DNA of 36,910 nucleotides. It comes from a virus. Under the pieces are notes generated by a model, which ran no database searches, was not told where the DNA came from, and worked only from the letters and a program-made list of their open reading frames with translations. The DNA is taken from positions 1 to 36,910 of the IMG/VR virus record IMGVR_UViG_3300042453_002929. One strand, given 5' to 3'. Each line of letters starts with the position of its first letter. Positions within the stretch are counted from its first letter, which is position 1. Position numbers and translations under genes: made by a program. Of the stretch, positions 331 through 16,054 are shown piece by piece.

Positions 331-354
331 TTGACGGCCAAAAACCGCATTTTT

Positions 355-819
355 ATGGGACGCACCCCGCAGCCCACCAATCTCAAGGTCATTCGCGGCA
401 ACCCGGGCCAGAGACCTCTGAACGACGCCGAGCCGCAGGCTCCTGCGGCCGACCTGACCCCGCCCGAAGTCCTCGACGAAGTCGGGCTTGAAGTCTGGAA
501 CGAGGTCGCGCCGCTCCTGTCGAGGATGGGCGTCTTCACTCAGGCCGACCGGCGACTCCTGACTCGCTACTGCCTCCTCCAGGAGCAGTTCGCTCATGTC
601 GTGAAGCACGTTCGCGAGAATGGGATGACTCAACTGACCCAGACCGGGTATTCGCAACTCACAGCGGAGGGTGCGTTGTTCAAAGGCCTGCCGTCCGAAC
701 TCCTGCGCATCGAGCAGCAGTTCGGCATGACGCCGGCGGCTCGTTCCACCATGAAGGTCTCCAATGCCGCTTCCCAAGAAAACCCTCTTGCCGCGTTTAT
801 CTCGAAGCGAAGCGGTTAA
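355..819 (+). CDS. terS: Terminase small subunit, P27 family
   Basis: This 154-residue protein starts MGRTPQPTNLKVIRGNPGQR, which matches the usual opening of P27-type small terminases (MGRxPxPTxLKxxxGNPGxRPLN). The central part (LDEVGLEVWNEVAPLLSRMG, then FTQADRRLLTRYC) and the end (GMTPAARSTMKVS) also fit the family. Small terminase recognises the packaging site and recruits the large subunit to the portal. I chose the ATG at 355 because of the family alignment. A TTG at 331 is in frame and follows a G-run, but with only about 2 nt spacing. The 3' end overlaps the start of terL by 56 bp, which suggests translational coupling. Confidence 0.88.
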   Translation: MGRTPQPTNLKVIRGNPGQRPLNDAEPQAPAADLTPPEVLDEVGLEVWNEVAPLLSRMGVFTQADRRLLTRYCLLQEQFAHVVKHVRENGMTQLTQTGYSQLTAEGALFKGLPSELLRIEQQFGMTPAARSTMKVSNAASQENPLAAFISKRSG

Positions 820-1063
820 GCAGGGCAAGTCTTTCTACTTCGACCCAGACAAAGCCCAGCACGCGGTCGACTTCTTCGAGAAGTTCCTCGTTCACTCCAA
901 GGGCAAGTTCGCCGGCCAGCCGTTCACGCTGCTTCCCTGGCAGAAGCACGAGGTGATCGAGGAAATCTTCGGCTGGATGCGGGTCGACACCGACACTCGG
1001 AAGTTCCGGGTTGGGTTCATTGAGGTGCCGAAAAAAAATGGCGCCTTGGCCCCCGCAGCCTAG
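764..1063 (+). CDS. terL: Terminase large subunit, N-terminal segment ending inside Walker A
   Basis: From ATG 764 the frame encodes the N-terminal part of an HK97-type large terminase: YFDPDKAQHAVDFFEKFLVH, then GKFAGQPFTLLPWQ and FRVGFIEVPKKNG. The last motif is the beginning of the Walker A loop (EVPKKNGKS in this family). After the Gly codon GGC (1040-1042) the frame leaves terminase sequence, reads six unrelated codons (A L A P A A) and hits TAG at 1061-1063. As written it would give a 99-residue fragment without a functional ATP site. Joined to the downstream segment without the 47-nt insert 1043-1089, it completes the P-loop exactly and yields a 543-residue protein of normal length for the family. 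Whether the joined product is made cannot be told from sequence alone. Confidence 0.85.
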   Translation: MPLPKKTLLPRLSRSEAVKQGKSFYFDPDKAQHAVDFFEKFLVHSKGKFAGQPFTLLPWQKHEVIEEIFGWMRVDTDTRKFRVGFIEVPKKNGALAPAA

Positions 1064-1089
1064 TGTTGCGGGGGCCAAGGTGATCCGGC
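1043..1089 (+). other. 47-nt hairpin insert in the terL Walker A codons; candidate translational bypass element
   Basis: The insert lies between GGC (1040-1042, Gly of the P-loop) and AAA (1090-1092, the P-loop Lys), and itself ends in GGC (1087-1089), so matched GGC codons flank a 44-nt gap. Arms CCTTGGCCCCCGCA (1044-1057) and its exact complement (1067-1080) give 14 perfect base pairs. The stem may extend inward by a G-U and a C-G pair to a 5-nt loop holding TAG. The insert shifts the frame (47 = 3n+2), and an in-frame TGA (1081-1083) closes the downstream frame just before the landing GGC. T4 gene 60 bypassing uses the same elements: matched take-off and landing Gly codons, a hairpin and a stop in a 50-nt gap. 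Function is inference; an inactivating insertion or artefact remains possible. Confidence 0.6.
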
Positions 1090-2442
1090 AAATCAACCCT
1101 CCTCTCTGGTATCGGGCTCTACATGACGGTCGCCGACGGCGAGTCGGCCGCCGAATGCTTCGGCTGCGCGACTTCCCGCGAGCAGGCGAGCATCGTGTAC
1201 AAGCAGATGAAGGAACTCGTCCAGGCGAGCCCTCACCTCTCCCAGATGCTCGAAGTCGTCGAGTCCCGAAAGACGATCGCCTGCACTCCGACGAACTCGT
1301 TCTGGCGGGTGATCTCGTCCGACGCCGGTCGCCAGGAAGGCCTCAACATCCATTCGCTCTGCTATGACGAGATTCATCAAGCGAAGGATCGGAAATTATG
1401 GGGTGCCGTCCGCTACGGCGGAATTTCCAGAGCCCAAAGCCTCATCCTCGCCATTACCACTGCCGGCACTGACCGAGCGAGCGTCTGCTACGAACTGCAC
1501 GAACACGCCCTGAAGTGCATGGTCGATCCTTCGTTCGACGACCAGTTCTTCGCCTTCGTGGCCGGGGCGACGATCGAGGATGATTACCGAGATCCCGAGG
1601 TCTGGAAGGCTGCGAATCCCTCGTTCGGCGTCACGATGGACGAGGAGTCGTTCAAGGCCGACGTTCGGGACGCCGAGGGCTCGAAGGCCAGACTGGCGGA
1701 CTTCCTGCGATACAGGCTCAACGTCTGGGTGCAGGGCTCGAACAAGTTCGTTGACCTGACCCGGTGGGAGCGGTGCAAGCGTGGCTACCCGACGCCAGAC
1801 ACGAAGCGAGAGTGGTTTCTGGGGCTTGACCTCGCGACCACCTGGGACGTCAATGCCCTGGTCGCGGTCTCGAAAGCGATTGACGAAGAGAACGGCGACG
1901 AGGTCTTCGACGTCATCTGTCGGTTCTGGATACCGGAGGACAACGCTGCCCAGCGGCGGGATGAGGTGCCTTACGTCATGTGGGCTCGCGATCCCCGGGT
2001 CGGCTTGACGCTCACGCCCGGCGACACTTGCGACTACGAGTTCATCCGGCGAGACATTCTGGAGTTCGCCAAGAAGCACCAAGTCGTGAAGATCGCGGCC
2101 GACCCTTACAACGCCCACCACCTCCAGCAGCAACTTCAGGCGGAAGGATTGTGCGTGGTAGGCTTCTCGCAGACCTTCAGTTCGCTCAATCACCCGACGA
2201 AACTCTTGGACACGCTAATCGCCCAAGGGCGACTGCGAACTGCGGACAATCCGATCCTCAACAACCACGCCTCGAACTGCGTTCTGCGAACGAACTCAGA
2301 GGGCTACATCAAAATCCAGAAGCCAGCCCCCATGAGTTCGGCAAGAGTTGACGGGATGGCGGCCTTGACGATGGCGATCGCGCTCGCGGCTGACGCGACC
2401 GCCGGAGCCAGGATGCCCGACCCGGAGATCATCGTCCTATGA
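1090..2442 (+). CDS. terL: Terminase large subunit, remainder of ATPase plus nuclease domain
   Basis: Reading from AAA 1090 gives KSTLLSGIGLYMTVADGES, the second half of Walker A. It is followed by a Walker B strand LCYDEIHQ (D186, E187 numbered in the joined 543-residue protein). The RNase H-like nuclease has acidic residues in FLGLDLATTWD (D340), IAADPYNA (D431) and RVDGMAALTM (D514). This is a Terminase_1/HK97-type motor and headful-or-cos cutting enzyme acting with TerS at the portal. The first ATG in this frame is at 1123, so independent initiation would give a 439-residue protein lacking Walker A and presumably inactive as an ATPase. The long, well-preserved frame with all nuclease acids intact argues against an old pseudogene. 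The stop overlaps the portal start (ATGA). Confidence 0.88.
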   Translation, partial: KSTLLSGIGLYMTVADGESAAECFGCATSREQASIVYKQMKELVQASPHLSQMLEVVESRKTIACTPTNSFWRVISSDAGRQEGLNIHSLCYDEIHQAKDRKLWGAVRYGGISRAQSLILAITTAGTDRASVCYELHEHALKCMVDPSFDDQFFAFVAGATIEDDYRDPEVWKAANPSFGVTMDEESFKADVRDAEGSKARLADFLRYRLNVWVQGSNKFVDLTRWERCKRGYPTPDTKREWFLGLDLATTWDVNALVAVSKAIDEENGDEVFDVICRFWIPEDNAAQRRDEVPYVMWARDPRVGLTLTPGDTCDYEFIRRDILEFAKKHQVVKIAADPYNAHHLQQQLQAEGLCVVGFSQTFSSLNHPTKLLDTLIAQGRLRTADNPILNNHASNCVLRTNSEGYIKIQKPAPMSSARVDGMAALTMAIALAADATAGARMPDPEIIVL

Positions 2443-5400
2443 GCGAAGAGCGGGTGCTGTCCGACGTTGTCTGGACACCGGAACGGGGGGCCGAGTCGCC
2501 CGAAGTGCGGTCAATCGCCTGGAACAACTTCCTCCTCTCGGACGAGATGTTCATGGGCCAGTGGCGGACAGCCGCCGAGATTCGGATCACGCCCGAGACT
2601 GCCCTCGCCAGCACTGTCGTGTTGGCTTGTTGCCGCATTTTGGCAGAGACGATCTCTAGCCTGCCACTTCATGTCATGCGGCGGCAGGACAACGGCGGCT
2701 CCACGCCAGCCGCCGACATCCCGCTCTACAAGGTCTTGGCGTTCGCTCCCAACGAGTGGCAGACCAAGTTCGAGTTCTTCGAGCAGATGGTCATGAATCT
2801 GACCCTCTGGGGCAACTCTTACAGCCTCATTCGCTCTGGGCGATACGGGGCAGTCTCGGCGCTCGACAACCTCCACCCCTCGCGGATGGACGTTGAGAGA
2901 CTTGAGAACGGCCGCCTGCGGTACTCGTACACGAACCCCGAGAACGGCCGCCTGGAGCGGTACACGCAAGACCAGATCATGCACATCCGCTGGACAGCGG
3001 AGCCCGACGGGATCAAGGGCATGGTGCCGATCGAGATCGCGAGAGAGGCGATCGCCCTGGCTCGCGCCTGCGAGATTCACGCGAGCAAGTATTGGGCGAA
3101 CTCAGCCCGCCCAGGCGTTGTCCTCCAGACGGACAACTCGCTCTCGCCCGAGGCCGCCGAGCGGCTGCGGGACAACTGGGAGAGGCTGCATAAGGGCAGC
3201 GACCGGGCTCACCGAACGGCGATCCTCACGAATGGACTCAAGGTCGAGCAAGTCGGGTTCAACGCCGAGCAGAGTCAGTTCCTGGATTCGCGGAGGTTTC
3301 AGAGCGAGGAGATCGCCCGAGTCTACCGCTTGCCGATTTCGCTGGTGCAGGGTCAGAGCAGCGGGAACATGGAGGCGACCGGCCAAGAGTTCGTCACCTA
3401 CACCCTGGTGCCGTGGCTTCGCCGGATCGAGAGCGGGATCAGTCGGTCGCTGATCTACAACGACGACGTCTTCTTCGCCGAGTTCGACACCAAGGCCCTC
3501 ATGCGAGCGAACAGCAACGCTCGCGCGGCTTTCTACTCGACGATGCAGAACCTGGGCATCTACTCGATCAACGACTCTCGTCACGACGAGGGCCTGCCGC
3601 CGATCGAGCATGGCGACAAGCACTTCGTCGCAATGAACATGATTCCGCTGGAACAGGCCGTGAAGGGGCCGCAGCAGCCGCAAGACCCGATGGCGGCCAT
3701 GATGGGCGGCGCTCCAGGCGGCCCGCCGCCGGAGATGCCCGGCGCGAAGCCAAGTCTCCCTGGCGTCAAGGTCGGCGAGGCGCCGCCCGAGGCCCCCAAG
3801 GGCCAGCCGTCGGAGAAGAAGCCGATCGCCGAGGGCGACGTCGTGACCTGGGGCGACGGAAAGATCGGCGAACTCAAGCACATCATGGAGCAGGGAACGC
3901 TCGACCTGAAGAGCGGCGAGAAGGTCGAGGTGCAGCCGGGCGAGCCCGTGGCTCTCGTCGTCGATCCCCAGAGCGGCGAAGAGTTCGCGGTCAAGGTCGC
4001 GGAACTCCAGAAGGCGAAGAAGGCCGAGGCCGTCGAGCAGCGGCGTCTCTCGCCGCAGAACCAGTCGCTCTACGATGCCCAGGAGCAGATCGTCCGCGAG
4101 AAGGGACGCTGGTCGCAGGCCGACTCGCACTACCAAGAACGGAATCCGTTCGCCTCGCGAGGCATTCTCTGCCGCAACTGCGTCTACTACGAAGAGGGCG
4201 GGTCGTGCGAGATCGTGAAGGGCTCGATTCGCCCTGACGCGATCTGCAAACTCTGGATCATCCCTGACGAGAGGCTCTCGATTCCCGAGCAGCGGGTCGA
4301 GGAGGAGAGCCGTGCCGCCGACTGCGGCCGCGACGAGAGCGGGAAGTTCGGCCCCAAGAATCAATGCCAGGACGACGATGGAGACTCGTCGCCAGACAGC
4401 GACGGAAAAGACCAGCCAAGCAGCAGCGACGGTGACGGCGACCGCCGGGAGCCGACCGGAGATGGAGATGGAGATGGAGATGGAGATGGAGACGGGGGCT
4501 CTGACCCCAGTCCCGACGCTGACAAAGACTTCAAGACTGGCGAGACTACAAGGGCTGCCCTCAAGTCCATCCGCGAAAGCGGCGGCTTCTCGGTCAACCC
4601 ATTCACGGCCGATAGCCCGACAACTGGCTACATGGTCTCTGTCGTCCCGGCCGCCGAGACGATTCTTGATTCTCCGGATGCCGTGACCGACGAAGTCATG
4701 GAGAAGTTTCTCCGAGACAACGAGCAGGCTTTCAAGGCCCGTCCGACGCTCCATGTGGGGGGTTGGCTGGACAAGGCAACCGGGAAGGTATATCTTGATC
4801 TGTCCGAGCAGTTCGACGATCTCGACGACGCGATTGATTCGGCCGAAAGCACGAATCAGTTGGCGATCTGGGATTTGAACGCCAAGGACGAAATCCGGAA
4901 GGAGAATTACGATGGCAGACGGACAAGAAAAAGAAAAGAATCTCGTTCGGTTCGATCTCCCGGGCGGGCTCGACGCAAAGTCGATCGCAGCGGCGATCCG
5001 CGAACACGGTCGCCGGATTCTCGACGAAGAGAAGGCGAAGAAAGAGCAACAGCCCAAGAAAGACTGATCGCCACCGCTTCTCGCGCGATGGGCAGCAAGA
5101 TGCCCCGCGTCGAGGTTCGCGACATCGGCGAGGCGATCGCGGTCTACGATCACCGCGACGATGTGCTGCTCGTCTCGCCGACGCTTCCGGATGAGTTGCA
5201 GGCGGGATACGCCTCGCAGGCGAACCCCTACATCCACGAGGCGGCTCACCGGATTCACGCCAGGGCGAACCCTCAGTCCTACGAGGCCGCCGTAGCGGTC
5301 GAGTTCTCCGCCGAGCAGCGGAGCCTCATCGCTGAACAAGTCTCGGCAGTCGCTGCGATCAACGGTCGCGAGTTGGTGGCCGAGGTTCTCGCCGGAGTGA

Positions 5401-5474
5401 TGGCCGGCAAGATGTACGGACACGACATCCTGTCGCTCGCCCGGGAGGTGGCCGGAAGTGAGGTGATTCCGTGA
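2439..5474 (+). CDS. HK97-family portal protein with long multi-domain C-terminal extension
   Basis: Residues 1 to about 410 are a standard HK97-type portal, the dodecameric DNA entry ring. Evidence includes STVVLACCRILAETISSLPL, LWGNSYSLIRSGRYGAV, the QIMHIRW segment and RVYRLPISLVQ. Usual portals stop near residue 400-450; this ORF runs to 1011. The extension holds, in order, a Pro/Gly linker, a small beta-rich domain starting GDVVTWGDGKIGEL (about 466-525), a four-cysteine cluster C578-x2-C581-x8-C590-x12-C603, the first cysteine tag (C629, C643), an Asp/Gly repeat, a domain with FSVNPFTADSPTTGYMVS and HVGGWLDKATGKVYLDLS (about 710-820), an Arg/Ser-rich stretch, and a C-terminal HEAAH (933-937) zincin-like motif. 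The Arg/Ser-rich stretch is the other reading frame of a small gene at 4912-5067. The C-terminal part might therefore be a separate gene starting at ATG 5088. Confidence 0.9.
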   Translation: MSEERVLSDVVWTPERGAESPEVRSIAWNNFLLSDEMFMGQWRTAAEIRITPETALASTVVLACCRILAETISSLPLHVMRRQDNGGSTPAADIPLYKVLAFAPNEWQTKFEFFEQMVMNLTLWGNSYSLIRSGRYGAVSALDNLHPSRMDVERLENGRLRYSYTNPENGRLERYTQDQIMHIRWTAEPDGIKGMVPIEIAREAIALARACEIHASKYWANSARPGVVLQTDNSLSPEAAERLRDNWERLHKGSDRAHRTAILTNGLKVEQVGFNAEQSQFLDSRRFQSEEIARVYRLPISLVQGQSSGNMEATGQEFVTYTLVPWLRRIESGISRSLIYNDDVFFAEFDTKALMRANSNARAAFYSTMQNLGIYSINDSRHDEGLPPIEHGDKHFVAMNMIPLEQAVKGPQQPQDPMAAMMGGAPGGPPPEMPGAKPSLPGVKVGEAPPEAPKGQPSEKKPIAEGDVVTWGDGKIGELKHIMEQGTLDLKSGEKVEVQPGEPVALVVDPQSGEEFAVKVAELQKAKKAEAVEQRRLSPQNQSLYDAQEQIVREKGRWSQADSHYQERNPFASRGILCRNCVYYEEGGSCEIVKGSIRPDAICKLWIIPDERLSIPEQRVEEESRAADCGRDESGKFGPKNQCQDDDGDSSPDSDGKDQPSSSDGDGDRREPTGDGDGDGDGDGDGGSDPSPDADKDFKTGETTRAALKSIRESGGFSVNPFTADSPTTGYMVSVVPAAETILDSPDAVTDEVMEKFLRDNEQAFKARPTLHVGGWLDKATGKVYLDLSEQFDDLDDAIDSAESTNQLAIWDLNAKDEIRKENYDGRRTRKRKESRSVRSPGRARRKVDRSGDPRTRSPDSRRREGEERATAQERLIATASRAMGSKMPRVEVRDIGEAIAVYDHRDDVLLVSPTLPDELQAGYASQANPYIHEAAHRIHARANPQSYEAAVAVEFSAEQRSLIAEQVSAVAAINGRELVAEVLAGVMAGKMYGHDILSLAREVAGSEVIP
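4458..4493 (+). repeat. Six tandem GGAGAY hexanucleotides
   Basis: GGAGAT occurs five times followed by GGAGAC, in frame, encoding alternating Gly-Asp just after the first cysteine tag in the portal ORF. The unit is a multiple of three, so copy-number change would alter linker length without breaking the frame. The encoded acidic tract is probably a flexible spacer. Confidence 0.9.
4912..5067 (+). CDS. Small 51-residue protein nested in the portal ORF, +1 frame
   Basis: ATG 4912 is preceded by GGAAGGAG with 7-nt spacing, one of the best ribosome sites in the window. The product starts MADGQEKEKNLVRFDLPGGL and ends in a Lys/Glu-rich tail (KKEQQPKKD). Codons in this frame look like those of neighbouring genes, whereas the portal frame across the same bases gives an Arg/Ser-rich sequence unlike any domain. 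It begins where the preceding portal-fused domain appears to finish (AIWDLNAKDEIRKEN). A single-base change there (TTAC to TTAAC) would give the portal ORF a stop overlapping this start. Either this is a truly overlapping gene or an indel or lost stop has fused the flanking genes. Function unknown. Confidence 0.62.
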   Translation: MADGQEKEKNLVRFDLPGGLDAKSIAAAIREHGRRILDEEKAKKEQQPKKD

Positions 5475-8400
5475 TTTTCCGCGAGGCGACTCTTCGCGGC
5501 GGGGATTACCGCGCGATCTTCGCCGAGACCGAACATCGCGCTGCTGGCTGTGGCCAAAACGCCGACGGCACGTTCGCGCCGAAGAACCAGTGCCAGGAAG
5601 ACGGGGCAGGGGGCGGACTTCCTCCCGCAGCCCGCGACAACTCCTGGAAGACGAGCGACAGTGAGGTGACGTTCTCTGGTGGCTCGAAGATCGAGTCTCT
5701 GGCGATCGCCCAGCCCAAGGCTGTGGCCGCCACGATGAAGCGACTGGGGGTCGATGACCTCGACTCGATCGTTGCGATTGGCGGCGGCGCTGTTCGCGGT
5801 TCGCGAATCTCGGTCGGCGACATGGACGACGAGGCGATCACGGTCTCGCTCACCTCGCCGGTCGATCCATCCGATCCCTCTAGTCCGAACGCAACCACCA
5901 GCGTGATGCTGATGGAGGGCTTTGGAGAAGGCGAGACTGTCGTCGACTACTCCGACTTCCATCCGGGCGGAACGCTGGGAGACGCGAAGGCCCAGGAGGG
6001 TGGCGAGAACAACGCGAAGCGGCTACGACTGGCGAGCATCCTGAAGGAGCGAATGCTCGAATCGCTGCTTGCCGCCGACAAGGCCGGCATCTCGAAGGCC
6101 GCAACGATGGCGGTCGGCAGAAAGGGCGACCCTTACGTCAAGGGCTACCGGCTCTGGCCGACGTTCGGCTTCGACGCCAAGGTTCCCAAGTCGTTGATGG
6201 CGAAGATTCCGGACGAGATTCTGCTCAAGGCCACAGGCGTCGACATTCCCTCGCAAGGCACCGGAAGGATTCCGCGAGAGGTCGTCATCAAGAACCTTCG
6301 CCAACAGGTGAAGAGCGTGACGATCCAGCAACTCATGCAGTTCCGCGCCGGCGAGAACTGGTGGACTGACAACGGCAGTTCCATCGAGATGTCGCTCGAC
6401 CTGAAGGACAAGAACTCCCTGGGGTACAAGAAGTTCCAGGAGGAGTTGAAGAAACTGCCCGCCCTGAAGAAGCGAAACGAAGGCCGCTCCTGGTATCCGA
6501 TCGACGACTTCGAGCGTCGTTCGTGCGACGGCTCCGACAAGGACGAGACTGGCCGGTTCGCGGCAGGCAACGACTGCGGCGGGCAGGGCCAAAGCGGCGG
6601 CTCGTCGCCCAGGCCTCCATCGCGAGCCAAGCGGGAGCAGTGGCGGAAGTCTGAGGACGACGTTGTCTTCCTCGACTCGAAGTCCCTCAAGGAGGGCTCG
6701 CCCGTCATCGGCGGCGAGCGGCTCCACGAACTGGCGATCGAGAGACCCAAGAACGTCGCCGCCGCGCTCGACGCAGTCGGCGTCAAAGACCTCGACACGG
6801 CCGTCAAGATCGGCGGCGGCGCAATCCGAGGCGCAGACGTCCGCGTGCGAAACTTCGGGCCTGAGACTGTCAGCATCTTCATCTCTTCGCCGATCGACCC
6901 TGACGACGAGGACGTCGGCAGCGTCATCACCAGCGTAGACCTGACCAAGTACGACGATGGCCTGGAGGTCTCATACGGAGGCCTAAACACACCCAAAGGC
7001 GTCTCCGACCCATCGCGACTTGACGCGGGGGCTCGCGACAAGACTCGCCTTCGGATCGCAAGTCTCATGCAGGAGCGAATGATCGAGTCGCTCATGTCGG
7101 CCCAGAAAGCCGGCGCGGTTCGCGCCTCGACCTACGCCGCAGGCGACAGCGACGATCCCTACTACCAGGGCTATCGGCTCTGGCCGCAGTTCGGATTCGA
7201 CGCGAAGTTGGATTTGACTCAGTACCAAGTCCCTCCCGAGATCGTCCTCGCCTCCTTCAAGAAGAAGGCCCCTGAGTCGGCGAGCGAGGCCGCCAAGCAG
7301 GCCAAGAAACTCACCTCCAAGGGCTTCACGCTTCAGCAGTTGATCTCCACTCGCGAGGGCAAGAAGTGGTGGGACGACAACGGCTCAAGCGTTGATATGA
7401 CCATCGACCTCAAGGACAGGAAGTCCCTGGGCTACAAGAAGTTGGCGAGGCTCAAGAAACTGCTTCCCAAACTCAAGGAGCGGAACGTCGCCGAGGGTCG
7501 AACCCTTTTGGGCTGGCTGATCGAGGAGGTGAGCCGCCGCTCGATGTCGGTGATGGGATTCTTTGGCGGCCTGAGTCGGGCGATCGAGCAGCGGGACTGC
7601 GGGCCATCAGACAAGAAGGCAGACGGCACGTTCGCCCCCGGCAACGACTGCCAGGAAGGTGCAGGGGGAGGTGACTCGCCTAAGCCCGGAGGCGAAAAGC
7701 CCAGGTCGGTGATCTGGACGCCGGGCCAGTCCGCAGGGCTCGTGACCTCGAAGGCCAGAGAGAATCCACCTACCACGCGCAGCGACGACGGGAAGAGAAT
7801 CGCCTCGACGTCGATCCCCGACGCGCATGTCTACGAGGGCCGGGGCGGCCGCGAGTTCGTCGGCACCGTGGACGTCGGCGGCGCGTTGGCGTCGGAGCAA
7901 GACACGATCCGAGGCGAGAAAATCGACACGGGCAAGAAGGTGCTTGACGGCGCAGAGTCCGAGTACATTCTCGCCGCCCTGGAAGAGCAAGTCCGCGAGG
8001 CCACGGGGCGAGGCATCGAGCCCAAGTTCTATTCACCAGAGGAGCGAGAGGAGCAACTGGCGGCCTTCGCCGGGATGATCCCCGAAGTCCGCGGCGGGCG
8101 AACGAAGTCTGGAGCCATGATCGAGCAGGAAGACGCGGAACACTTGTTCCGAGTCCTTCAGGCGATCACCAGCCCCAACGCATCGCCGTTCATCAATATG
8201 CAGCGAACTGACTCGCTGCTTCAGAAGTTCTTCTATGGCGACGGGCTCGTCACGACCTCCGACTCGCTCGGCGTGACCGGAGCCGGGATCAAGAAGTCGC
8301 TCCGCAGGTTCCAGAAGATCGTAGACACGCTCGGCAAGCGAACCGATGGCAGCATCGACACGGCGGCAGGGCTTCGAGCGGCAAGGGAGTTGCTCCAGGG

Positions 8401-11392
8401 CCGGTCGCTCCGCGCTGGCGACATCGAGAAGTTCTTCGCGGACTTCGCCTCTCCTGGCGAGAAGAAGGGAACATGGAAGCCCGGCTCGTATCTCGTCGAT
8501 GAGGTCGTTCCGGTCTTCTCGACGTTCGGCCCGAAGGTCGGCCCGTTCTACGGCAACAACAACGGCGACCTCGACCCGCTGACGGCCGACGTCTGGTTCT
8601 CTCGAACCTGGGGCCGGGTCACCGGCGAGTTGGTGATTCCAGGCAGTCCGACCAAGTCAGCCAAGCAGGCCACGGAACTGGCGAAGGTGATCGGCAAGGC
8701 CAGCGACGACCAGTTGCACGGCATCTCCGGCGCCGCCCTCGCGGACGCCGTGAAGCAAACTAGCGAGACGGGGGCCGTCAGCGATGTACTTCGCGCCTGG
8801 GCTGGTGCGAGGCTCAGGCACTACGCCCGAGGTGACTACAAGGAGAAGACAGGCACCGGCGGCAAACTGAATCGGCTCGCGAAGAACATCGTCGAGAACG
8901 ACACCGCACTCATCGGCGACCCAGGCTCTGGCAGTCGGCGAAGCCACATGATCCGCCTCATGCGGGAAGTCTCGCGAAAGACTGGCACTCCCGTCGCCTA
9001 CCTACAGGACATTCTCTGGCAGGACGAGCAGGATGCTTACGGCGCCCTCGGCGCCATGACCGCGACGAACGTCGGCGAACCGTCGCTCTACTCTGACCAG
9101 ATCAGAAAACTCGCCGCCAACGATGGCAAAAGCCGCAAGCAACGAGCCAAGGCCGATCGCGGCTATCGTCGCAACTACGAGCAGCCCGAGCCCTTCGTCG
9201 ACGACTACGAGCGCGGCGGCCGCGAGCAGATGCTGTGGGACGCCGCATTGGCTCACCTGAGCGACGAAGAGTTCGCCGAGGCCGTCATCAAGTTAGCCGA
9301 GAAGGCGAGGCCGACCGAGGAGCATCGCGAGGAGCGCCGCAACTTCGCAGCGCTCGACTACGGGGTCGAGATTCGCTCCGCCGACTGCGGCCGCGACGAG
9401 GGAGGGAAGTTCGGGCCGAAGAACGAGTGCCAGGAAGAAGGCAGCGGCAGCGACGATCCGCCTCCGCCGTCCTGGGCGAGCAACATCGAACACAGCATGA
9501 AGAAGTCGCGAGGCTACGACGACCCCGCAAACAAGCAGGCGTGGCTGAACCTGTCTGGCACGTTCTATCCAGTCAGGGGAGATCACGGTGAGTTCGCCCT
9601 CAATAACGGAGTCGAGGGCGGCGGCGAAGACCTCCTTGACGCAGGGTGGCTTCGCGTCGCTGGCGTTGGATCGGGGACGCTCTACGTCGGCAACTCTGGC
9701 GGAAAGCCTCCTACCAAGTCGCAAATATCGGCATTGCGGGACTTCGCGATTTCAACCGGAGTCGTGAACCAAGTTGTCTTCGATGACGGGCGATCTCGTC
9801 GCGGGCGAGTTCTCTGGAGCAAGGAAGAATCCCGCTCTGCCGACTGCGGCCGCCAAGACGGCGGGATGTTCGGAGACGGCAACACCTGCGCCAAGGGAGA
9901 CGAAGGACTCTCGAACAGCAAGGGCGAATCGTTCCGTGGCGTTCGTCGCAAGTCTGACAAGACCCAGACGAAGGTGGCCCGCAAACTCTATCAGATGCGG
10001 GTTCCCGAGAAGAACCTCAAGGGGCTCGTCCGCAACCTGGGCGGCAAGGTGAGCAACACGTTCGTCGAGATCGACCCGACTCGCGGCGACGAAGGCGTGA
10101 ACGTCTTCGTCCGCGATCGAGACAACAACGAGACGCACTACATCCACATCGGCTACTACGGCGCGACGATCTACACGACCGACACTAAGCCGGCCGGAGA
10201 AGTGTCTCGCATCCAGGCCGCCGCCAAGGAGTTCCTTCCCAAGACCATCGACAATCGCCTCTGGGGCGCGGGCAACGACTATCCGGTCTATGTCGTCAAC
10301 AGCCCCGACGAGACGTCGAAGCAGTGGGCTGGCCTGTCGGCGAAGCAGCGGCTCAAAAACGAGCGTCGCTCCGCCGACTGCGGCCGCACGGATGACGGGA
10401 AGTTCGGCCCGAAGAACGAGTGTCAGGAGGAGGGCAGCGGCAGCGGCAGCGAGGAGAAGAAGCCCTCAAAGGGTGCCTACCGCGACGCCGCAAACCCGCT
10501 CGCCATCAAGCGAGTCCGAGAGGACATCGACAATGGCAACCTCCAGTATGCCGCCGAGAACATCGAGTTCTTGATGGAGTCGATGCCGCCTTCCGAGGTG
10601 GCGAAAGAACTTGGATTCAAGTCTTTTGATGTCGACGGGTCGTTTGACCGCGACTCGAAGAAAAAAGGCGGCATCCTTTCGTTCTTGCGGGGAGACCCCG
10701 CCAAGTCTGCGGCGAACCATTTGGCGAAACTGGCTCTCGCGGCCAAGCACGAGCCGGGGCTCAAGGAATCGTCAATCAACTTCTCAAAGTTCAACACGAC
10801 CGTGGACTCGATTGCAGCAGAGGCCGGCATCACTCGCCTCTTTGATAAGTTGAAACTGGCTACCGCAATGGCAGGAGTGAAGGCTGCTTGCAACCTGAAG
10901 ACAGGCGCTATCACAGTGGTGCAGGATCGCGCCGGAGACCAGAAAGAACTCACCCGAGCCTATGATAATGGCTGGTTTTCGACGGACGATCCGTCGCACT
11001 ACGTCTTGCACGAGTACGCTCACAAGTTGCAGCACGACGCGATCGCAAGAATGGCCGGCGGCGCGGACAAGATTACGCCCGAAGTCGTTGGAGGTCTTAG
11101 GTCGCAAATCATGGGCGCTATCTCGGCGATCAACAACTCACCGCCACCGCCCGGCCAAACAGGCGTTCTCGATCGCGCGATGGCTGTGTCGATGTACGGA
11201 ATGACTGACCCGCTTGAGTTCTTTGCCGAATACTGGACTGGCGTCACGCTTGGGTACGTTAGGAATGACAAGCAGTTTGACATGATATTCTCGCTTGTCG
11301 GCATGGAGCCGCCAAAGAAGAGCGACTCCGCGACGGTTCGTTACGACGCCAGCGGATTCCCGGGCCGAAAACAAAAGAAAAAGAGGAAGTAG
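5471..11392 (+). CDS. 1973-residue modular head-region protein with six cysteine tags
   Basis: The GTG start overlaps the portal stop. The protein is built of modules, each introduced by a cysteine tag (Cys pairs 27/41, 352/369, 710/727, 1306/1320, 1459/1473, 1637/1651). Modules 1 (about 50-345) and 2 (about 390-690) are paralogues sharing GYRLWPxFGFDAK, then WWxDNGSS and DLKDKxSLGYKK. Module 3 (about 745-1290) is a large domain with LTADVWFSRTWGRVTG and is unrecognised. Module 4 is a short domain of about 110 residues opening AWLNLSGTFYPVRGDHGEF. Module 5 (about 1485-1630) has THYIHIGYYGATIYT and is unknown. Module 6 ends in a zincin-like domain with HEYAHKLQHD (H1847, E1848, H1851) and the downstream helix LEFFAEYWTG, which could supply the third ligand. 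Position between portal and protease suggests a capsid-internal or minor head protein; enzymatic roles are inference. Confidence 0.8.
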   Translation: MIFREATLRGGDYRAIFAETEHRAAGCGQNADGTFAPKNQCQEDGAGGGLPPAARDNSWKTSDSEVTFSGGSKIESLAIAQPKAVAATMKRLGVDDLDSIVAIGGGAVRGSRISVGDMDDEAITVSLTSPVDPSDPSSPNATTSVMLMEGFGEGETVVDYSDFHPGGTLGDAKAQEGGENNAKRLRLASILKERMLESLLAADKAGISKAATMAVGRKGDPYVKGYRLWPTFGFDAKVPKSLMAKIPDEILLKATGVDIPSQGTGRIPREVVIKNLRQQVKSVTIQQLMQFRAGENWWTDNGSSIEMSLDLKDKNSLGYKKFQEELKKLPALKKRNEGRSWYPIDDFERRSCDGSDKDETGRFAAGNDCGGQGQSGGSSPRPPSRAKREQWRKSEDDVVFLDSKSLKEGSPVIGGERLHELAIERPKNVAAALDAVGVKDLDTAVKIGGGAIRGADVRVRNFGPETVSIFISSPIDPDDEDVGSVITSVDLTKYDDGLEVSYGGLNTPKGVSDPSRLDAGARDKTRLRIASLMQERMIESLMSAQKAGAVRASTYAAGDSDDPYYQGYRLWPQFGFDAKLDLTQYQVPPEIVLASFKKKAPESASEAAKQAKKLTSKGFTLQQLISTREGKKWWDDNGSSVDMTIDLKDRKSLGYKKLARLKKLLPKLKERNVAEGRTLLGWLIEEVSRRSMSVMGFFGGLSRAIEQRDCGPSDKKADGTFAPGNDCQEGAGGGDSPKPGGEKPRSVIWTPGQSAGLVTSKARENPPTTRSDDGKRIASTSIPDAHVYEGRGGREFVGTVDVGGALASEQDTIRGEKIDTGKKVLDGAESEYILAALEEQVREATGRGIEPKFYSPEEREEQLAAFAGMIPEVRGGRTKSGAMIEQEDAEHLFRVLQAITSPNASPFINMQRTDSLLQKFFYGDGLVTTSDSLGVTGAGIKKSLRRFQKIVDTLGKRTDGSIDTAAGLRAARELLQGRSLRAGDIEKFFADFASPGEKKGTWKPGSYLVDEVVPVFSTFGPKVGPFYGNNNGDLDPLTADVWFSRTWGRVTGELVIPGSPTKSAKQATELAKVIGKASDDQLHGISGAALADAVKQTSETGAVSDVLRAWAGARLRHYARGDYKEKTGTGGKLNRLAKNIVENDTALIGDPGSGSRRSHMIRLMREVSRKTGTPVAYLQDILWQDEQDAYGALGAMTATNVGEPSLYSDQIRKLAANDGKSRKQRAKADRGYRRNYEQPEPFVDDYERGGREQMLWDAALAHLSDEEFAEAVIKLAEKARPTEEHREERRNFAALDYGVEIRSADCGRDEGGKFGPKNECQEEGSGSDDPPPPSWASNIEHSMKKSRGYDDPANKQAWLNLSGTFYPVRGDHGEFALNNGVEGGGEDLLDAGWLRVAGVGSGTLYVGNSGGKPPTKSQISALRDFAISTGVVNQVVFDDGRSRRGRVLWSKEESRSADCGRQDGGMFGDGNTCAKGDEGLSNSKGESFRGVRRKSDKTQTKVARKLYQMRVPEKNLKGLVRNLGGKVSNTFVEIDPTRGDEGVNVFVRDRDNNETHYIHIGYYGATIYTTDTKPAGEVSRIQAAAKEFLPKTIDNRLWGAGNDYPVYVVNSPDETSKQWAGLSAKQRLKNERRSADCGRTDDGKFGPKNECQEEGSGSGSEEKKPSKGAYRDAANPLAIKRVREDIDNGNLQYAAENIEFLMESMPPSEVAKELGFKSFDVDGSFDRDSKKKGGILSFLRGDPAKSAANHLAKLALAAKHEPGLKESSINFSKFNTTVDSIAAEAGITRLFDKLKLATAMAGVKAACNLKTGAITVVQDRAGDQKELTRAYDNGWFSTDDPSHYVLHEYAHKLQHDAIARMAGGADKITPEVVGGLRSQIMGAISAINNSPPPPGQTGVLDRAMAVSMYGMTDPLEFFAEYWTGVTLGYVRNDKQFDMIFSLVGMEPPKKSDSATVRYDASGFPGRKQKKKRK

Positions 11393-11560: not shown

Positions 11561-14078
11561 GCACATCAACTTCAAGCCCCCGCAGGGAGCCCGCAAGGAG
11601 GCCGAGAAGTCCCTCGCGTGGCGTCGCGAGTTTGGTCGCGGCGGCACGGCCGTCGGCATCGCCAGGGCGAGAGACTTGGCAAACGGAGTCGAACTCTCGC
11701 CGTCGACAGTCCGTCGCATGAAGGCGTTCTTCGATCGCCACCAGAAGAACAAGTCCGCGCCTGGCTGGAGCCCTGACGAGGACGGATTCCCGTCCAACTC
11801 CCGAATCGCGTGGGCCATGTGGGGCTCCGACGCCGGATGGTCGTGGGCCAAGAAGGTCGTCGAGCAGATGAACGCGGCAGACGAGAAGGAGCAGCGAGGC
11901 CTTCGTCCCTACGGCTCGACGCACGGCATGAGGCCGAAAGTCTACGTCGTCCACGGAGCCCCGTGCAGCGGCAAGAAAGACTACGTCGCCAAGCACCTGG
12001 GCGAGAACGACGTCGTGTTCGACTACGACGAGGTCATGGCGGCGGTCTCCGGGCGGCCGATTTACGAGCCGAACCGCAATCTCGTCTCTTATTGTCTGGA
12101 CATAAGAACCCTTATCCTGAAAAAAGCATTGCAGCGATCGGGAGCCGACAAGACCTGGATCATCACGACAAGAGTCGGCGACGACATGAAGTCGCAGTTG
12201 TCGGACATCCCAGTGAAGTACGTCCACATCGACACGCCGAAGGACGAGTGCCTCCAGCGACTGAAGCAGGACGAGAAGCGACAGCCCTTAGCCCAGGAGT
12301 TACGCCAAGTGATCGAAGAGTATTTCAAGACTGGCGACGAGGAGCAGCGTCGAGCCCCCTTGGCCCAGCCGGGCGTCGAGCGTCGATACATCGGCAACTT
12401 CGGCAACGACGAGCGGCTTGACCCGGAACTGCTTCGCATCGAGAAGCGGTCTGACCCCGAGACTGGCAAGCCTCGCACCTACATCATCGGCTATGCGGCT
12501 CGCTTCCATCGCGACAGTTTGCTCTTGGGGGATTTCGTCGAGCAGATTGACCCAGGCGCGTTCGAGATCGTGACGAACCGACAGGACGAGGACGGGAAGC
12601 CCCTGGAGACTCGCTGCCTCTTTAACCACGACCCCAATCACCTCCTGGGTCGGTTTCCGACGACCATGCGAATGGTCGTCGACGACAAGGGGCTGCGGTA
12701 CGAGTGCCTGCTCCCCGAGACTCGCAGTGATCTCGAAGAATTGATCGCCAGAGGCGACCTCAAGGGGTCTTCATTCTCTTTCGTCGTGAGCGAAGGCGGC
12801 GAGCGCTGGACGACGGAAAACGGCCAGTCGCGACGAATCGTGACGAAGGTGAAAGCCATCCTGGACTGCGGCCCCGTGACCTACCCAGCCTACAGCGATT
12901 CTAGTGTGTCGGTTGCGAAGCGGAGTTACGAGCAGTTCGTTGGCAAGCCGCAGCGAAAGCCGCGACGCAAGAGTCGGCTCAAGACGCTGGAGCGTAGGGC
13001 CGAGTCGCTGCGAGCCAGGATCGCCGCCGAGGCTTTTCTTGCCGAACGTCGCGACTGCGGCCGCGAGCAGGACGGGAAGTTCGGCTCCGAAAACAAGTGC
13101 CAGGACGGGGCCGGCGGGGCATCTGGCAGTTCGGCATCCTTGGATCAGAACAAGGTTAGCGCGCAAGTGGCTTCGGTATCGGGAATCGGTCGGACTTGGA
13201 AGGTGAACACGCAGAAGGACGGTAGCGTCCACATTAATGGGGCCGCAGGAGAAATCACAGTCAGCAAGAACGCGCCGGCGCACGGGGTCAAAGGGAAGAG
13301 CAATCTCCACTTCAACCCCAGCGGCGGAGGAAAAGAAATTGCGAAACTCGCCACCGACGCAGCAAAGGCGACCGGGTCTGAGACGGTCTCTGTACAGTCA
13401 TGGAGCCCGGAACACGACGAGGCCCTCAAGGCGAATGGGTTCAAGAAAACAGGCGGTGCTTTCACCAAGTCCGAGGATCACGACATTTGGGTCAAAGACT
13501 TGACGAAGGAAAAGAAGTCGTCCCGGTCTGAGCGACGCGACTGCGGCCGAGGCGACGACGGCAAGTTTGGCTCCGGCAACAAGTGCCAGGAGGACGAAAG
13601 CAGCAGCAGCGAGCCCAAGTCTGGCAATCGGCCTCAAGGCAGCAAGGCCGAGAAAGCCGCAGCCGAGCAGCGGCCTCCCGTCGGCGAAGAGAGTCCCAAG
13701 TACATGGAACTCTCGCGGCCGATGACATCCGGCAAGGCGAAGGCGGCACAGAAGTTCGCCGACGCGGCCCGCAAGCGGCAGGAGGCGAAGACGAAGGAGA
13801 AGTCGACCGACGCCGGCGACGATGGCTCCGGCGTCCAGACCTGGAGCAAGGGCGACGCCTACCCGTGGACGGCGAAGCAAGTCGGCGACAGCAGCAAGGG
13901 CGGCTACGTCCAGGCGCAGCATCCTGACGGCACCAAGACGAAGAAGTACGAGTTTCCCGCCGGCAGCGATGGCTCTGATGCCTACCGCAAGGCCGAGGAT
14001 GAGATCAAGCAGAAGAAGAAGCGGTCTCTCTCGATCAAGGCCGCCGAACTGCGGTCGTTCCTGGAAGCGAGGCGATGA
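11538..14078 (+). CDS. Prohead protease (S78/U35-like) fused to a P-loop kinase-like domain and two cysteine-tag modules
   Basis: The start is ATG 11538 (MSIPEKYKHINFKPPQG), preceded by ACAAGGA; the frame extends upstream but that sequence is not protein-like. Of 846 residues, about 5-110 form a domain seen fused to phage proteases (LAWRREFGRGGTAVGIARAR, then DGFPSNSRIAWAMWG). Residues 135-250 are a P-loop kinase-like domain with GAPCSGKK (140-147) and VKYVHIDTPKDECLQR. Residues 300-470 are the HK97-type prohead protease: GYAARFHRDSLLLGDFVEQI, the catalytic-His motif FNHDPNH (H364) and SSFSF with probable nucleophile S412. The protease normally trims capsid delta domains and scaffold. Tags follow at C507/C521 and C669/C683, the first leading to an acetyltransferase-like segment (EALKANGFKKTGG), the second to a charged C-terminus. 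The stop overlaps the next start (ATGA). Confidence 0.88.
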   Translation: MSIPEKYKHINFKPPQGARKEAEKSLAWRREFGRGGTAVGIARARDLANGVELSPSTVRRMKAFFDRHQKNKSAPGWSPDEDGFPSNSRIAWAMWGSDAGWSWAKKVVEQMNAADEKEQRGLRPYGSTHGMRPKVYVVHGAPCSGKKDYVAKHLGENDVVFDYDEVMAAVSGRPIYEPNRNLVSYCLDIRTLILKKALQRSGADKTWIITTRVGDDMKSQLSDIPVKYVHIDTPKDECLQRLKQDEKRQPLAQELRQVIEEYFKTGDEEQRRAPLAQPGVERRYIGNFGNDERLDPELLRIEKRSDPETGKPRTYIIGYAARFHRDSLLLGDFVEQIDPGAFEIVTNRQDEDGKPLETRCLFNHDPNHLLGRFPTTMRMVVDDKGLRYECLLPETRSDLEELIARGDLKGSSFSFVVSEGGERWTTENGQSRRIVTKVKAILDCGPVTYPAYSDSSVSVAKRSYEQFVGKPQRKPRRKSRLKTLERRAESLRARIAAEAFLAERRDCGREQDGKFGSENKCQDGAGGASGSSASLDQNKVSAQVASVSGIGRTWKVNTQKDGSVHINGAAGEITVSKNAPAHGVKGKSNLHFNPSGGGKEIAKLATDAAKATGSETVSVQSWSPEHDEALKANGFKKTGGAFTKSEDHDIWVKDLTKEKKSSRSERRDCGRGDDGKFGSGNKCQEDESSSSEPKSGNRPQGSKAEKAAAEQRPPVGEESPKYMELSRPMTSGKAKAAQKFADAARKRQEAKTKEKSTDAGDDGSGVQTWSKGDAYPWTAKQVGDSSKGGYVQAQHPDGTKTKKYEFPAGSDGSDAYRKAEDEIKQKKKRSLSIKAAELRSFLEARR

Positions 14079-16054
14079 ACGGCATCGAGTGTCGCATCGC
14101 CTCGTTGCGGGCCTTCGTGGAGGCTCGCGACAGGCAGTTGGAACTGTCGTTCGGCGACGACAACTGCGGTCGACAAGAGGGCGGGAAGTTCGGCCCTGGC
14201 AACTCTTGCCAGGAAGACGGAGATGGCGGTCAGAGCGTCGCCGCGTCGATCCGTCGCCAAGCGGCCGAAACAGATGGCGCTTCGTTCAGTGGCGCAGACG
14301 TCCCGAAAGCGTTCGGCGCCGCCAAGAGCGTTAGGATTTCAGGCGCAGAAGACGCGCTGAAAGTCTTCGACTCGCTTGCTCGCGACGGCATGACGTTCAG
14401 TCAGGCGATCGCGATGACTCCCGGAGCGAGAGAGAAAGACGCCGAGGTGCGAATCAGAGGCACTCATCGCTCTGATGGGTCTGGCTATATCTCGGCGGAG
14501 GTCATTGTTCCGCTCGACATTCCAACAGACCAGACCGGCGGCGAGGTTGAGTCTGTGCGAATCAAGACAGAGGTCGAGCGATTCTCAGAGGGGTCGGAGC
14601 AGCCCTCCGGCGTCACTCGATCTGGGGTCGCATTTGACTCGCCGGTGAAGTCGGGGCTTCACCTCGACCTTCTCTCAGTCTCCCGCTCGACCCAGCGGCT
14701 AATCGTCAAAGGTCACGAGGCGTTGAAGACGCCCGAAGCAGAGCGAACACCCGAGCAAGTGGCAGCGATCGAACTCGGAGCCAGAGTCGAGCGACAAATC
14801 TCCTCGAAGATGCTCTCCATGATGGTTGACGCGATCTCAGCCGCCGAAGAGGCGGGCGTCGGCGCTGTCTACACCTACGGAGCCGGCGGAGGCAGCGGCT
14901 CCACAAACTTGGGCGAGAACCCAGACACCTATCGAGGCTACGCGCTCTGGGGGCGATTCGGCCTCGACGGAGTGGTCGTCAAGCCGGGATGGGGAGGTGA
15001 AGTGGACAGGAAACTCTCTGATATCGCCGACAGCCAGGATCATCCAGACCGAGGAGTGCTGACTGAGGAGTCGTGGCAGAAGTACCGGAGTGGTCAAAAC
15101 TTGACCCTGCAAGACTTGATGGAAACCAAGCAAGGGGAGCGGTTCTGGAGGCAGTACGGCTCAGGGACGTACTTCGCGCTGAACCTGAAGGACAAGGACT
15201 CCAAGGGCTACAGAAAGTTTCTGAAAATGAAGAAGGCCGCCAACCGCGCTGGCAACTCTCGCGCGTTTTTTTGGTGGCTTGCCGAACACCGAGGTGACCC
15301 TATGGACTATTTCAAGATCGAAAAACGCAACTGCGGCAACGGCGCTGGCGGCTTCCAGAAGGGCAACACCTGCGCCGGGCAGGCCGTCGCTGACGTAGCG
15401 GGCGGCGCCGCTAAAGGGGCTGTCGTTGGCGCTGCCGCAGCCGTCGGCAAAACCGGCGGCTTCCCTCCGGCGGTCGCCGCTGGGGCCGCGGGCGGCGCTG
15501 CCGTCGGCGCGGTGAAGGGCCTCTACGACAACCGGATGCGACCCACCCGGGCCGGCAAGGCGATCAAGGCGATCGGAACGTCGGACGAGCAAGTCGCGTC
15601 GATGGTGAAGGGCCTGGGCGGAAGCCCGAAGTCGATCGCCGAGGCGGACGGCAAGTCTGCGGTAACGCTTTCGGTTAAGGACAAGGACGGCAAGTCGCAG
15701 TTCGATGTCCGGATGACCAAGTCCGAGGTGCGAATCAAGCCCGCGTCAGGGCGACAGAACCTCACCGCAGGCGACATCAAGCAGATCAAGAAGATCGCCG
15801 AGGAGAACTCGCCCAAGAGCGTCAAGGTCGTGGTCGATGCCGTCCCGACGTCGGTGCTGGCGAAGATCGTCAAGGCGGGGGCTTCGCTAGCCCTGGACGC
15901 CACCGGGGCGCTCGTGGCGGCGTTCGTTGTGCCTTCTGTTCCGGCAATCGCAGGCACCGCAATCGAAGCGACCACCGGCATTGATATCGAGAAGACCAAG
16001 GCGGCCCAGTGGGTGGGCGAGAAAGTCTTGGGCAACCTTCCCAAGAGGAGATAA
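14075..16054 (+). CDS. 659-residue modular head-region protein with two cysteine tags and a glycine-zipper region
   Basis: The first cysteine tag (C31/C45) leads to a third paralogue of the domain seen twice in the 1973-residue protein: RGYALWGRFGLDG, LTLQDLMETKQGERFWRQYG and LNLKDKDSKGYRKF (about residues 50-395). The second, shorter tag (C420/C433) leads to an Ala/Gly-rich stretch of about 45 residues with small-residue periodicity (AKGAVVGAAAAVGKTGG, then AAGAAGGAAVGAVKG). This resembles glycine zippers of membrane-inserting proteins. A further small domain follows, then a hydrophobic segment LVAAFVVPSVPAIAGTAIEA. No signal peptide is seen. A protein made in the head block with a potential membrane-active tail could be ejected with the DNA; that is inference. 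Confidence 0.75.
   Translation: MNGIECRIASLRAFVEARDRQLELSFGDDNCGRQEGGKFGPGNSCQEDGDGGQSVAASIRRQAAETDGASFSGADVPKAFGAAKSVRISGAEDALKVFDSLARDGMTFSQAIAMTPGAREKDAEVRIRGTHRSDGSGYISAEVIVPLDIPTDQTGGEVESVRIKTEVERFSEGSEQPSGVTRSGVAFDSPVKSGLHLDLLSVSRSTQRLIVKGHEALKTPEAERTPEQVAAIELGARVERQISSKMLSMMVDAISAAEEAGVGAVYTYGAGGGSGSTNLGENPDTYRGYALWGRFGLDGVVVKPGWGGEVDRKLSDIADSQDHPDRGVLTEESWQKYRSGQNLTLQDLMETKQGERFWRQYGSGTYFALNLKDKDSKGYRKFLKMKKAANRAGNSRAFFWWLAEHRGDPMDYFKIEKRNCGNGAGGFQKGNTCAGQAVADVAGGAAKGAVVGAAAAVGKTGGFPPAVAAGAAGGAAVGAVKGLYDNRMRPTRAGKAIKAIGTSDEQVASMVKGLGGSPKSIAEADGKSAVTLSVKDKDGKSQFDVRMTKSEVRIKPASGRQNLTAGDIKQIKKIAEENSPKSVKVVVDAVPTSVLAKIVKAGASLALDATGALVAAFVVPSVPAIAGTAIEATTGIDIEKTKAAQWVGEKVLGNLPKRR

Follow-up and report, generated by a model that had tools for sequence, protein, structure and literature searches.

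Natural translational bypassing is known from few cases, given as gene 60 of phage T4, inserts in yeast mitochondria and a proposed hop in the phage phiHau3 (PMC5009743), so that the rules of bypassing derive mostly from mutating one gene. In T4 gene 60, as the cited accounts describe it, the ribosome bypasses 50 nt, the takeoff and landing codons are both GGA and a hairpin occupies the A site (PMC5009743, PMC11194080); an intron protecting against a homing nuclease is reported as the possible origin of the gap (PMC5009743). The mitochondrial inserts of Magnusiomyces capitatus (byps) are given there as occupying 81 positions in many genes and are said to be independent of context (PMC5009743). 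The same source names the Streptomyces phage phiHau3 as one that may use bypassing in its terminase (PMC5009743).

We describe here an insert that many environmental phages share within an essential DNA-packaging gene, that of the large terminase subunit (terL), and that to judge from the sequences is most likely skipped by the ribosome. We regard it as probably a programmed translational bypass element similar to that of T4 gene 60, because it is found at one site, its covariation has the sense of the mRNA, its gaps fall in all three phases with no frame that fits all of them, its ends form a codon pair and the gene on both sides is under purifying selection.

The interrupted terminase gene and its relatives

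The window, i.e., the whole stretch of DNA analysed, is the 36,910-base virus record IMGVR_UViG_3300042453_002929 (positions 1 to 36,910). It opens with a terminase module in which all genes lie on the plus strand: the small subunit gene terS (331..819; Pfam Terminase_4, phrog_83), the interrupted terL and the portal protein gene (2439..5474; Pfam Phage_portal, phrog_12). The first part of terL (764..1042) has 93 codons, ends in ...GFIEVPKKNG and is homologous to the uninterrupted N-terminal part of its relatives. The second part (1090..2442) has 450 codons from KSTLLSGIG plus the stop, and comprises the remainder of the TerL ATPase and the nuclease domain (Pfam TerL_ATPase, TerL_nuclease). 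In the uninterrupted relatives both halves are joined as PKKNGKST, the Walker A of this packaging ATPase. Positions 1040-1086 split the gene inside this motif, between Gly and Lys (PKKNG|KST), and the gene is open on both sides of the 47-nt break; PKKNG is also conserved in relatives without insert. Ordinary gene calling splits the terL of the window in two, as happened in its ORF list, and terL is a main phage marker gene. Further along the head region, two very long ORFs (5471-11392, 1973 aa, and 14075-16054, 659 aa) lack a PHROG match (E 0.001). At 1011 aa the portal ORF is likewise long, and its portal match stops near residue 459.

All parts of the insert can be placed on the plus strand. 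The upstream stretch GAGGTG CCG AAA AAA AAT (1022..1039) is a candidate pause, a candidate Shine-Dalgarno-like signal or sequence simply carried along; GAGGTG is present in 32 of the 38 elements collected (see below), and the A8 run also in 32. It is followed by the takeoff codon GGC (Gly, 1040..1042), the first of a GGC pair, and by a hairpin delimited by folding and covariation, whose 5' arm (1043..1059) begins right after the takeoff codon and pairs over 17 bp with the 3' arm (1065..1081). The loop CTAGT (1060..1064) contains an in-frame stop, TAG, at 1061-1063. A 5-nt linker, GATCC (1082..1086), leads to the landing codon GGC (1087..1089), 47 nt from the takeoff GGC and followed by AAA TCA. 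The GGC repeats and the limits of the insert had been placed exactly by the first-pass annotation, and the near-complete palindrome that it noted is this 17-bp hairpin. Folding of positions 1030-1100 gives -40.3 kcal/mol (z = -6.1), a stability equalled by none of 200 shuffles. Within the arms, a core of 14 nt has complete complementarity. Also confirmed was the lack of a second stem copy, since no other copy of this core with one mismatch or fewer exists in the whole 36,910-base record; with three mismatches there are 12 matches against 5.7 expected, two of the 12 being the hairpin's own arms.

Related sequences, whose absence anywhere was named in the first-pass annotation as refuting its idea, do exist. 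Elements were found on 53 contigs beyond the window, whose names bear 49 different dataset numbers, and 38 distinct elements could be defined, all at the same site of terL (counted together with 12 bases of flank on each side; by insert sequence alone there are 36). One carrier, L086, has its element too near the contig start for the pattern and is included in the 53 contigs, outside the 38, while L193, L199 and L203 were pattern artefacts without insert and were dropped before the count of 38 was reached. In a first protein search we obtained 50 loci, 45 of them covering the motif, and among these 28 had the insert, 15 had no insert and two had an intein. The five contigs nearest to the window (L003-L007) all have the insert.

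In the scans for copies, which are tied to the known stem type and which stems of other sequence elsewhere could escape, the distribution was the same: a context-free scan for one stem type returned 38 stretches, every one at this spot of terL, and a covariance model found one full copy per record in 25 carrier records, their second matches being the palindrome on the opposite strand. Four records without the insert gave no full copy with this model, but a short match at the empty site (three) or nothing (one). Two more weak matches of the model, in G001 and G007, had E about 0.4. When terL with 32-62 extra bases at the site was sought, the hairpin not being required, 28 stretches were retrieved and the hairpin was present in all 28. 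The first element pattern gave 55 stretches, 19 of which are chance matches without terL context, and the pattern of the upstream motif gave 45, including four empty sites. None of the 17 stretches from a pattern scan of genome contigs lay in terL context, and a loose A8TGG scan gave no convincing hairpin case at new loci among the matches listed. A 131-base query had no Blastn match among named phages and plasmids. With strict filters, the covariance model returned a single weak hairpin match, in L313, from 294 genomes belonging to the same phylum as the L121 genome (Planctomycetaceae); this is a GC-rich hairpin in a bacterial genome (L313, 1501-1541) similar to the terL stem, with no terL frame seen around it. 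Three uninterrupted and more distant terL genes (L104, L106 and L107) share the exact stretch GAGGTGCCNAAAAAAAATGG upstream of the site. No report of this terL element was found in the open-access literature searched.

As for the host, the best terL match reached 42% in a sample of 343 genomes that share the phylum of a Planctomycetaceae genome, 29% in 240 genomes of the phylum of an Opitutaceae genome and 37.6% among the named phages listed. These values are no more than a hint of a host within the Planctomycetota, as L311, another lineage with the element, resembles a phage of Dorea at 41.5%.

Conservation of the hairpin and of the codon pair

The alignment of the 38 sequences shows standard pairs in 97.5% of the cells and changes on both sides in 10 of the 18 stem pairs, and no shuffle out of 500 reaches any of five covariation measures (both shuffle controls, as well as our Fisher tests, ignore relatedness). 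Sliding the partner by 1-3 columns lowers the pairing to 41-52%. Lineages as far apart as L006, L014, L109, L112, L139 and L306-L308 show such two-sided changes. At two positions of the stem the commonest pair is U-G or G-U in the sense of the mRNA, which points to a hairpin selected as RNA of the terL strand. A terminator on the minus strand, where T8 follows the hairpin, was also considered and is unlikely because the plus-strand U-G and G-U pairs correspond to A-C mismatches in minus-strand RNA. The geometry varies within narrow limits: the stem has 15-18 pairs and starts at the first base after the takeoff codon in 36 elements and at the second in two, and the linker has 5 (19 elements), 6 (6), 7 (4) or 8 nt (9).

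The takeoff and landing triplets share their first two bases in 37 of the 38 elements and are identical codons in 22, all of them GGC/GGC. The other pairs are GGC/GGA (5), AAT/AAC (4), GGT/GGC (3) and, once each, GGC/GGT, GGT/GGA and GGG/GGT. The sole mismatch (L012, 4902-4976) has GGC at takeoff and TGC at landing, for which a sequencing error, a tolerated mismatch or another landing choice are the candidates. The third base thus differs in 15 codon pairs, and the repeats are non-identical in 16. The AAT/AAC class (L306-L309) can be regarded as a natural experiment, as takeoff, stem and landing are all displaced one codon earlier, the stem again starts directly after the takeoff, and AAC is followed by GGN AAR TCN, leaving the predicted motif unchanged. 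This shift by a whole codon points to reading by a tRNA, and the flanking repeats look like a codon pair readable by one tRNA. Against bypass we count the six elements that pair GGC or GGT with GGA, a combination that a single tRNA may read poorly, together with the mismatched L012, the lack of a stop right after the takeoff, the 18 elements without any 0-frame stop in the gap and the elements that could be read after a -1 or +1 shift (see below). Part of the agreement between the repeats could also date from the origin of the insert. A stop codon directly after the takeoff was found in none of the 38 elements, the next codon being GTC, GCC, CGC, CCC, TCC or CTC, and TTA was likewise never found there. 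The earlier interpretation of the GGC repeats as a target duplication is less likely than that of a codon pair, given the AAT/AAC pairs and the variable third base, even if the repeats may have originated as a duplication.

A fold conserved as RNA and flanked by short repeats would also be expected if the insert were removed from the mRNA, or if the RNA polymerase skipped between the repeats, the ribosomes then meeting an intact message that predicts the same protein. We consider this improbable. It could be matched to no known bacterial or phage process, Rfam giving nothing above the gathering score for positions 700-1500 of the window (six sub-threshold matches only). Moreover, the repeats are just 2-3 nt long, their third base varies in a wobble-like manner, and the displacement of the pair by a whole codon in L306-L309 fits a tRNA better.

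Reading frames, selection and the proposed passage of the ribosome

The gaps measure 46 (5 elements), 47 (13), 48 (7), 49 (3), 50 (6) or 51 nt (4), and all three reading phases occur among them. Straight reading restores terL in none of the 38 elements, and the 11 gaps divisible by three all contain an in-frame stop. Overall, a stop in the 0 frame lies inside the gap in 20 elements; the other 18 have none, so the signal does not generally include a stop. Downstream of the insert dN/dS is 0.01-0.14 in 13 of the 14 pairs tested (the row L003-L009, with 0.38 and a protein identity of 0.66, apparently suffers from a misalignment due to a length difference of one codon and was left out), and upstream dN is lower than dS in all 13 pairs with changes. 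KSTLL is invariant after the landing triplet in the 38 elements, with varying codons, and start codons are nearly absent from the first 11 codons after landing (one element, at the tenth). Judging from these substitution patterns, both halves of terL are under purifying selection and both sides of the insert evolve as one translated protein. We infer that the gap is left untranslated in the 38 elements and that the skipping takes place on the ribosome.

In the mechanism that we propose, the ribosome would make residues 1-93 of the terminase and arrive with peptidyl-tRNA-Gly at the takeoff GGC (GGN, or AAT, in other elements). The hairpin would fill the A site while the Gly-tRNA on GGC occupies the P site. 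A frameshift hairpin is described as docking in the A site and blocking tRNA binding when it lies 11-12 nt from the start of the P-site codon (PMC7282821), and the hairpin of T4 gene 60 is likewise reported in the A site (PMC11194080). The base of the window stem is 12 nt from the first AAA, so the pause could begin on the A-run. The tRNA would then release, the hairpin would be passed undecoded and the tRNA would re-pair with the matching codon 5-8 nt past the stem; with the hairpin kept folded, the effective gap would be this linker alone. Translation would restart at AAA TCA, restoring ...PKKNG-KSTLL.... As in programmed bypassing, one protein is here encoded in two ORFs, the gap between them has no usable frame, and the takeoff and landing codons match (in all elements except L012, at the first two bases). 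The hairpin at the takeoff site is that of the T4 gene 60 type, which also has a stop 3' of the takeoff that the terL elements do not have.

The A8 run followed by a hairpin also resembles a frameshift site. A hairpin-stimulated shift on this run, by which the insert would be translated into about 16 extra residues, would reach terL through an open frame in 13 of the 38 elements at -1 (and in three at +1). However, neither shift restores terL in the remaining 22. In the window the first frame ends at TAG (1061) and the landing frame is closed by TGA (1081), so that no single shift can succeed. Programmed -1 frameshifting is compatible with those 13 elements only, and not with the window. The A8 run is absent from L139 and L306-L309, and a peptide encoded by the insert would fall inside Walker A, all of which makes this alternative very unlikely.

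Still less credit can be given to a switch at the DNA level, suggested in the first-pass annotation, in which the palindrome would be precisely deleted in a fraction of the genomes and those alone would make terminase. There are indeed clean empty sites in related phages (L017, L022, L191 and L193), but these phages are lineages of their own (most of the pairs compared have 83-91% downstream identity) and not variants of one genome. The insert is present in all five of the nearest contigs, its stem is kept with G-U pairs in the sense of the mRNA, the narrow distances of stem start and linker are needless for deletion and the two halves behave as one translated protein, although rare deletion within a population is conceivable. 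A terL that is broken, or that yields two chains by re-initiation after the hairpin, could account for the in-frame stop in 20 of the gaps and has equally little in its favor, given the low dN/dS on both sides, the invariant KSTLL with almost no start codons after landing, and a split that would separate the Gly of Walker A from its Lys.

Probable spread of the element and comparison with known systems

A tree of a quick kind was made from the downstream halves of 100 terL genes, of which 38 have the element, 60 lack it and two have an intein; long branches are flagged in it for L310 and L208. Presence or absence changes at least 16 times on this tree, and the well-supported branches force at least 10 changes for the label "without". 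L084, with the element, and L191 and L193, without it, have 90-91% identity over 900 downstream bases, and the flanks differ beside the site: AAA AAA AAT ... AAA TCG in L084 versus AAG AAG AAC GGC AAA AGT in L191. Along these lines, the Ser after the landing is encoded by TCN in 38 of 38 carriers versus 35 of 58 others (p = 1e-6), although three of these carriers (L309-L311) are known only from a scan that required TCN after the landing; a scan for AGY carriers gave no stretches. The A8 run is found in 32 of 38 carriers versus 6 of 25 others with KKN (p = 3e-6). The insert and its flanks seem to move together. Short-tract exchange accounts for the pattern, and selection acting on the flanks could produce a similar one. 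Since the element was seen at one site only in the scans made, its spread looks like one between alleles of one gene, and not like random transposition. The idea of a mobile micro-element, already put forward in the first-pass annotation, is therefore retained as regards mobility, for which the patchy presence and the exchanged flanks speak, but not in the form of a transposed miniature element with target duplication, as the insert was found in terL only in these scans and its repeats differ in 16 of the 38 cases.

Two close relatives have inteins in the same Walker A, at K|S (L048, about 3960 to 5000, and L036, 3 to about 1013), with borderline LAGLIDADG matches of 22.6 and 22.3 bits versus a cut-off of 22.5. 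They interrupt the same motif as the hairpin insert, one codon downstream, but are protein elements removed after translation and have no hairpin. An insert a few bases from K|S could spoil the intein target, and the element is perhaps kept because it shields the Walker A site from the homing intein. This can be put together as a site-specific mobile bypass cassette, with a hairpin of 15-18 bp crossed in the folded state (a hop of 5-8 nt), which would spread by short tracts and split the homing-intein site, conferring immunity while leaving the protein unchanged. We advance this combination tentatively, as one that is conceivable and, taken as a whole, rather doubtful.

The 38 natural variants provide altered stems, linkers and codon pairs, four of them shifted by one codon, and there are near relatives without the element. 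They make it possible to test which signals suffice, in what folding state the hairpin is crossed, how strict the match of the codons has to be and how the element spreads.

Among the described systems, the -1 frameshift sites of the dnaX type, as presented in PMC7282821, are like the terL element in having an A-rich run and a stable hairpin able to enter the A site, and differ in that a shift on the A-run is excluded for 22 of the 38 elements. The mobile byps, in the description of PMC5009743, are also short inserts in essential genes, neutralized by the ribosome and allowing imperfect codon matches, whereas the terL element is confined to a single site of one phage gene and has a strict hairpin.

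The phage phiHau3 comes closer in location. Its record (JX182369, L315) was compared with phage R4, and two breaks were located in terL, at positions 2611 and 2921. The first, at ...LKGWG|KDPLLA, reads GGC TTACTCC GGT AAG, with 7 nt between the codons, and aligns to the same Gly|Lys as the terL insert (a weak alignment, E 0.009). The second reads TCT TTAACGG TCC, with synonymous codons, TTA after the first of them and the same 7-nt spacing. Common to both systems are thus the gene, the GGC takeoff, a GGT landing and a distance of 7 nt that falls within the 5-8 nt range of our linkers, making the hop suggested for phiHau3 about the same size as the folded hop proposed here. In contrast, phiHau3 has UUA after the takeoff, no hairpin insert and a second break further on; the UUA and the missing hairpin indicate that it is not the same element.

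With T4 gene 60, as portrayed in the sources cited, the terL element shares the skipping of about 50 nt, its location in a structural or replication gene of a phage, the Gly codons, the takeoff hairpin and perhaps a tie to protection from a homing nuclease. Described for T4 gene 60 are the GGA/GGA pair, the stop directly after the takeoff, the nascent-peptide signal and the 5' stem-loop, while the terL element has GGN or AAY pairs, no stop at that place, a much longer stem and a different gene, and comes in 38 natural variants.
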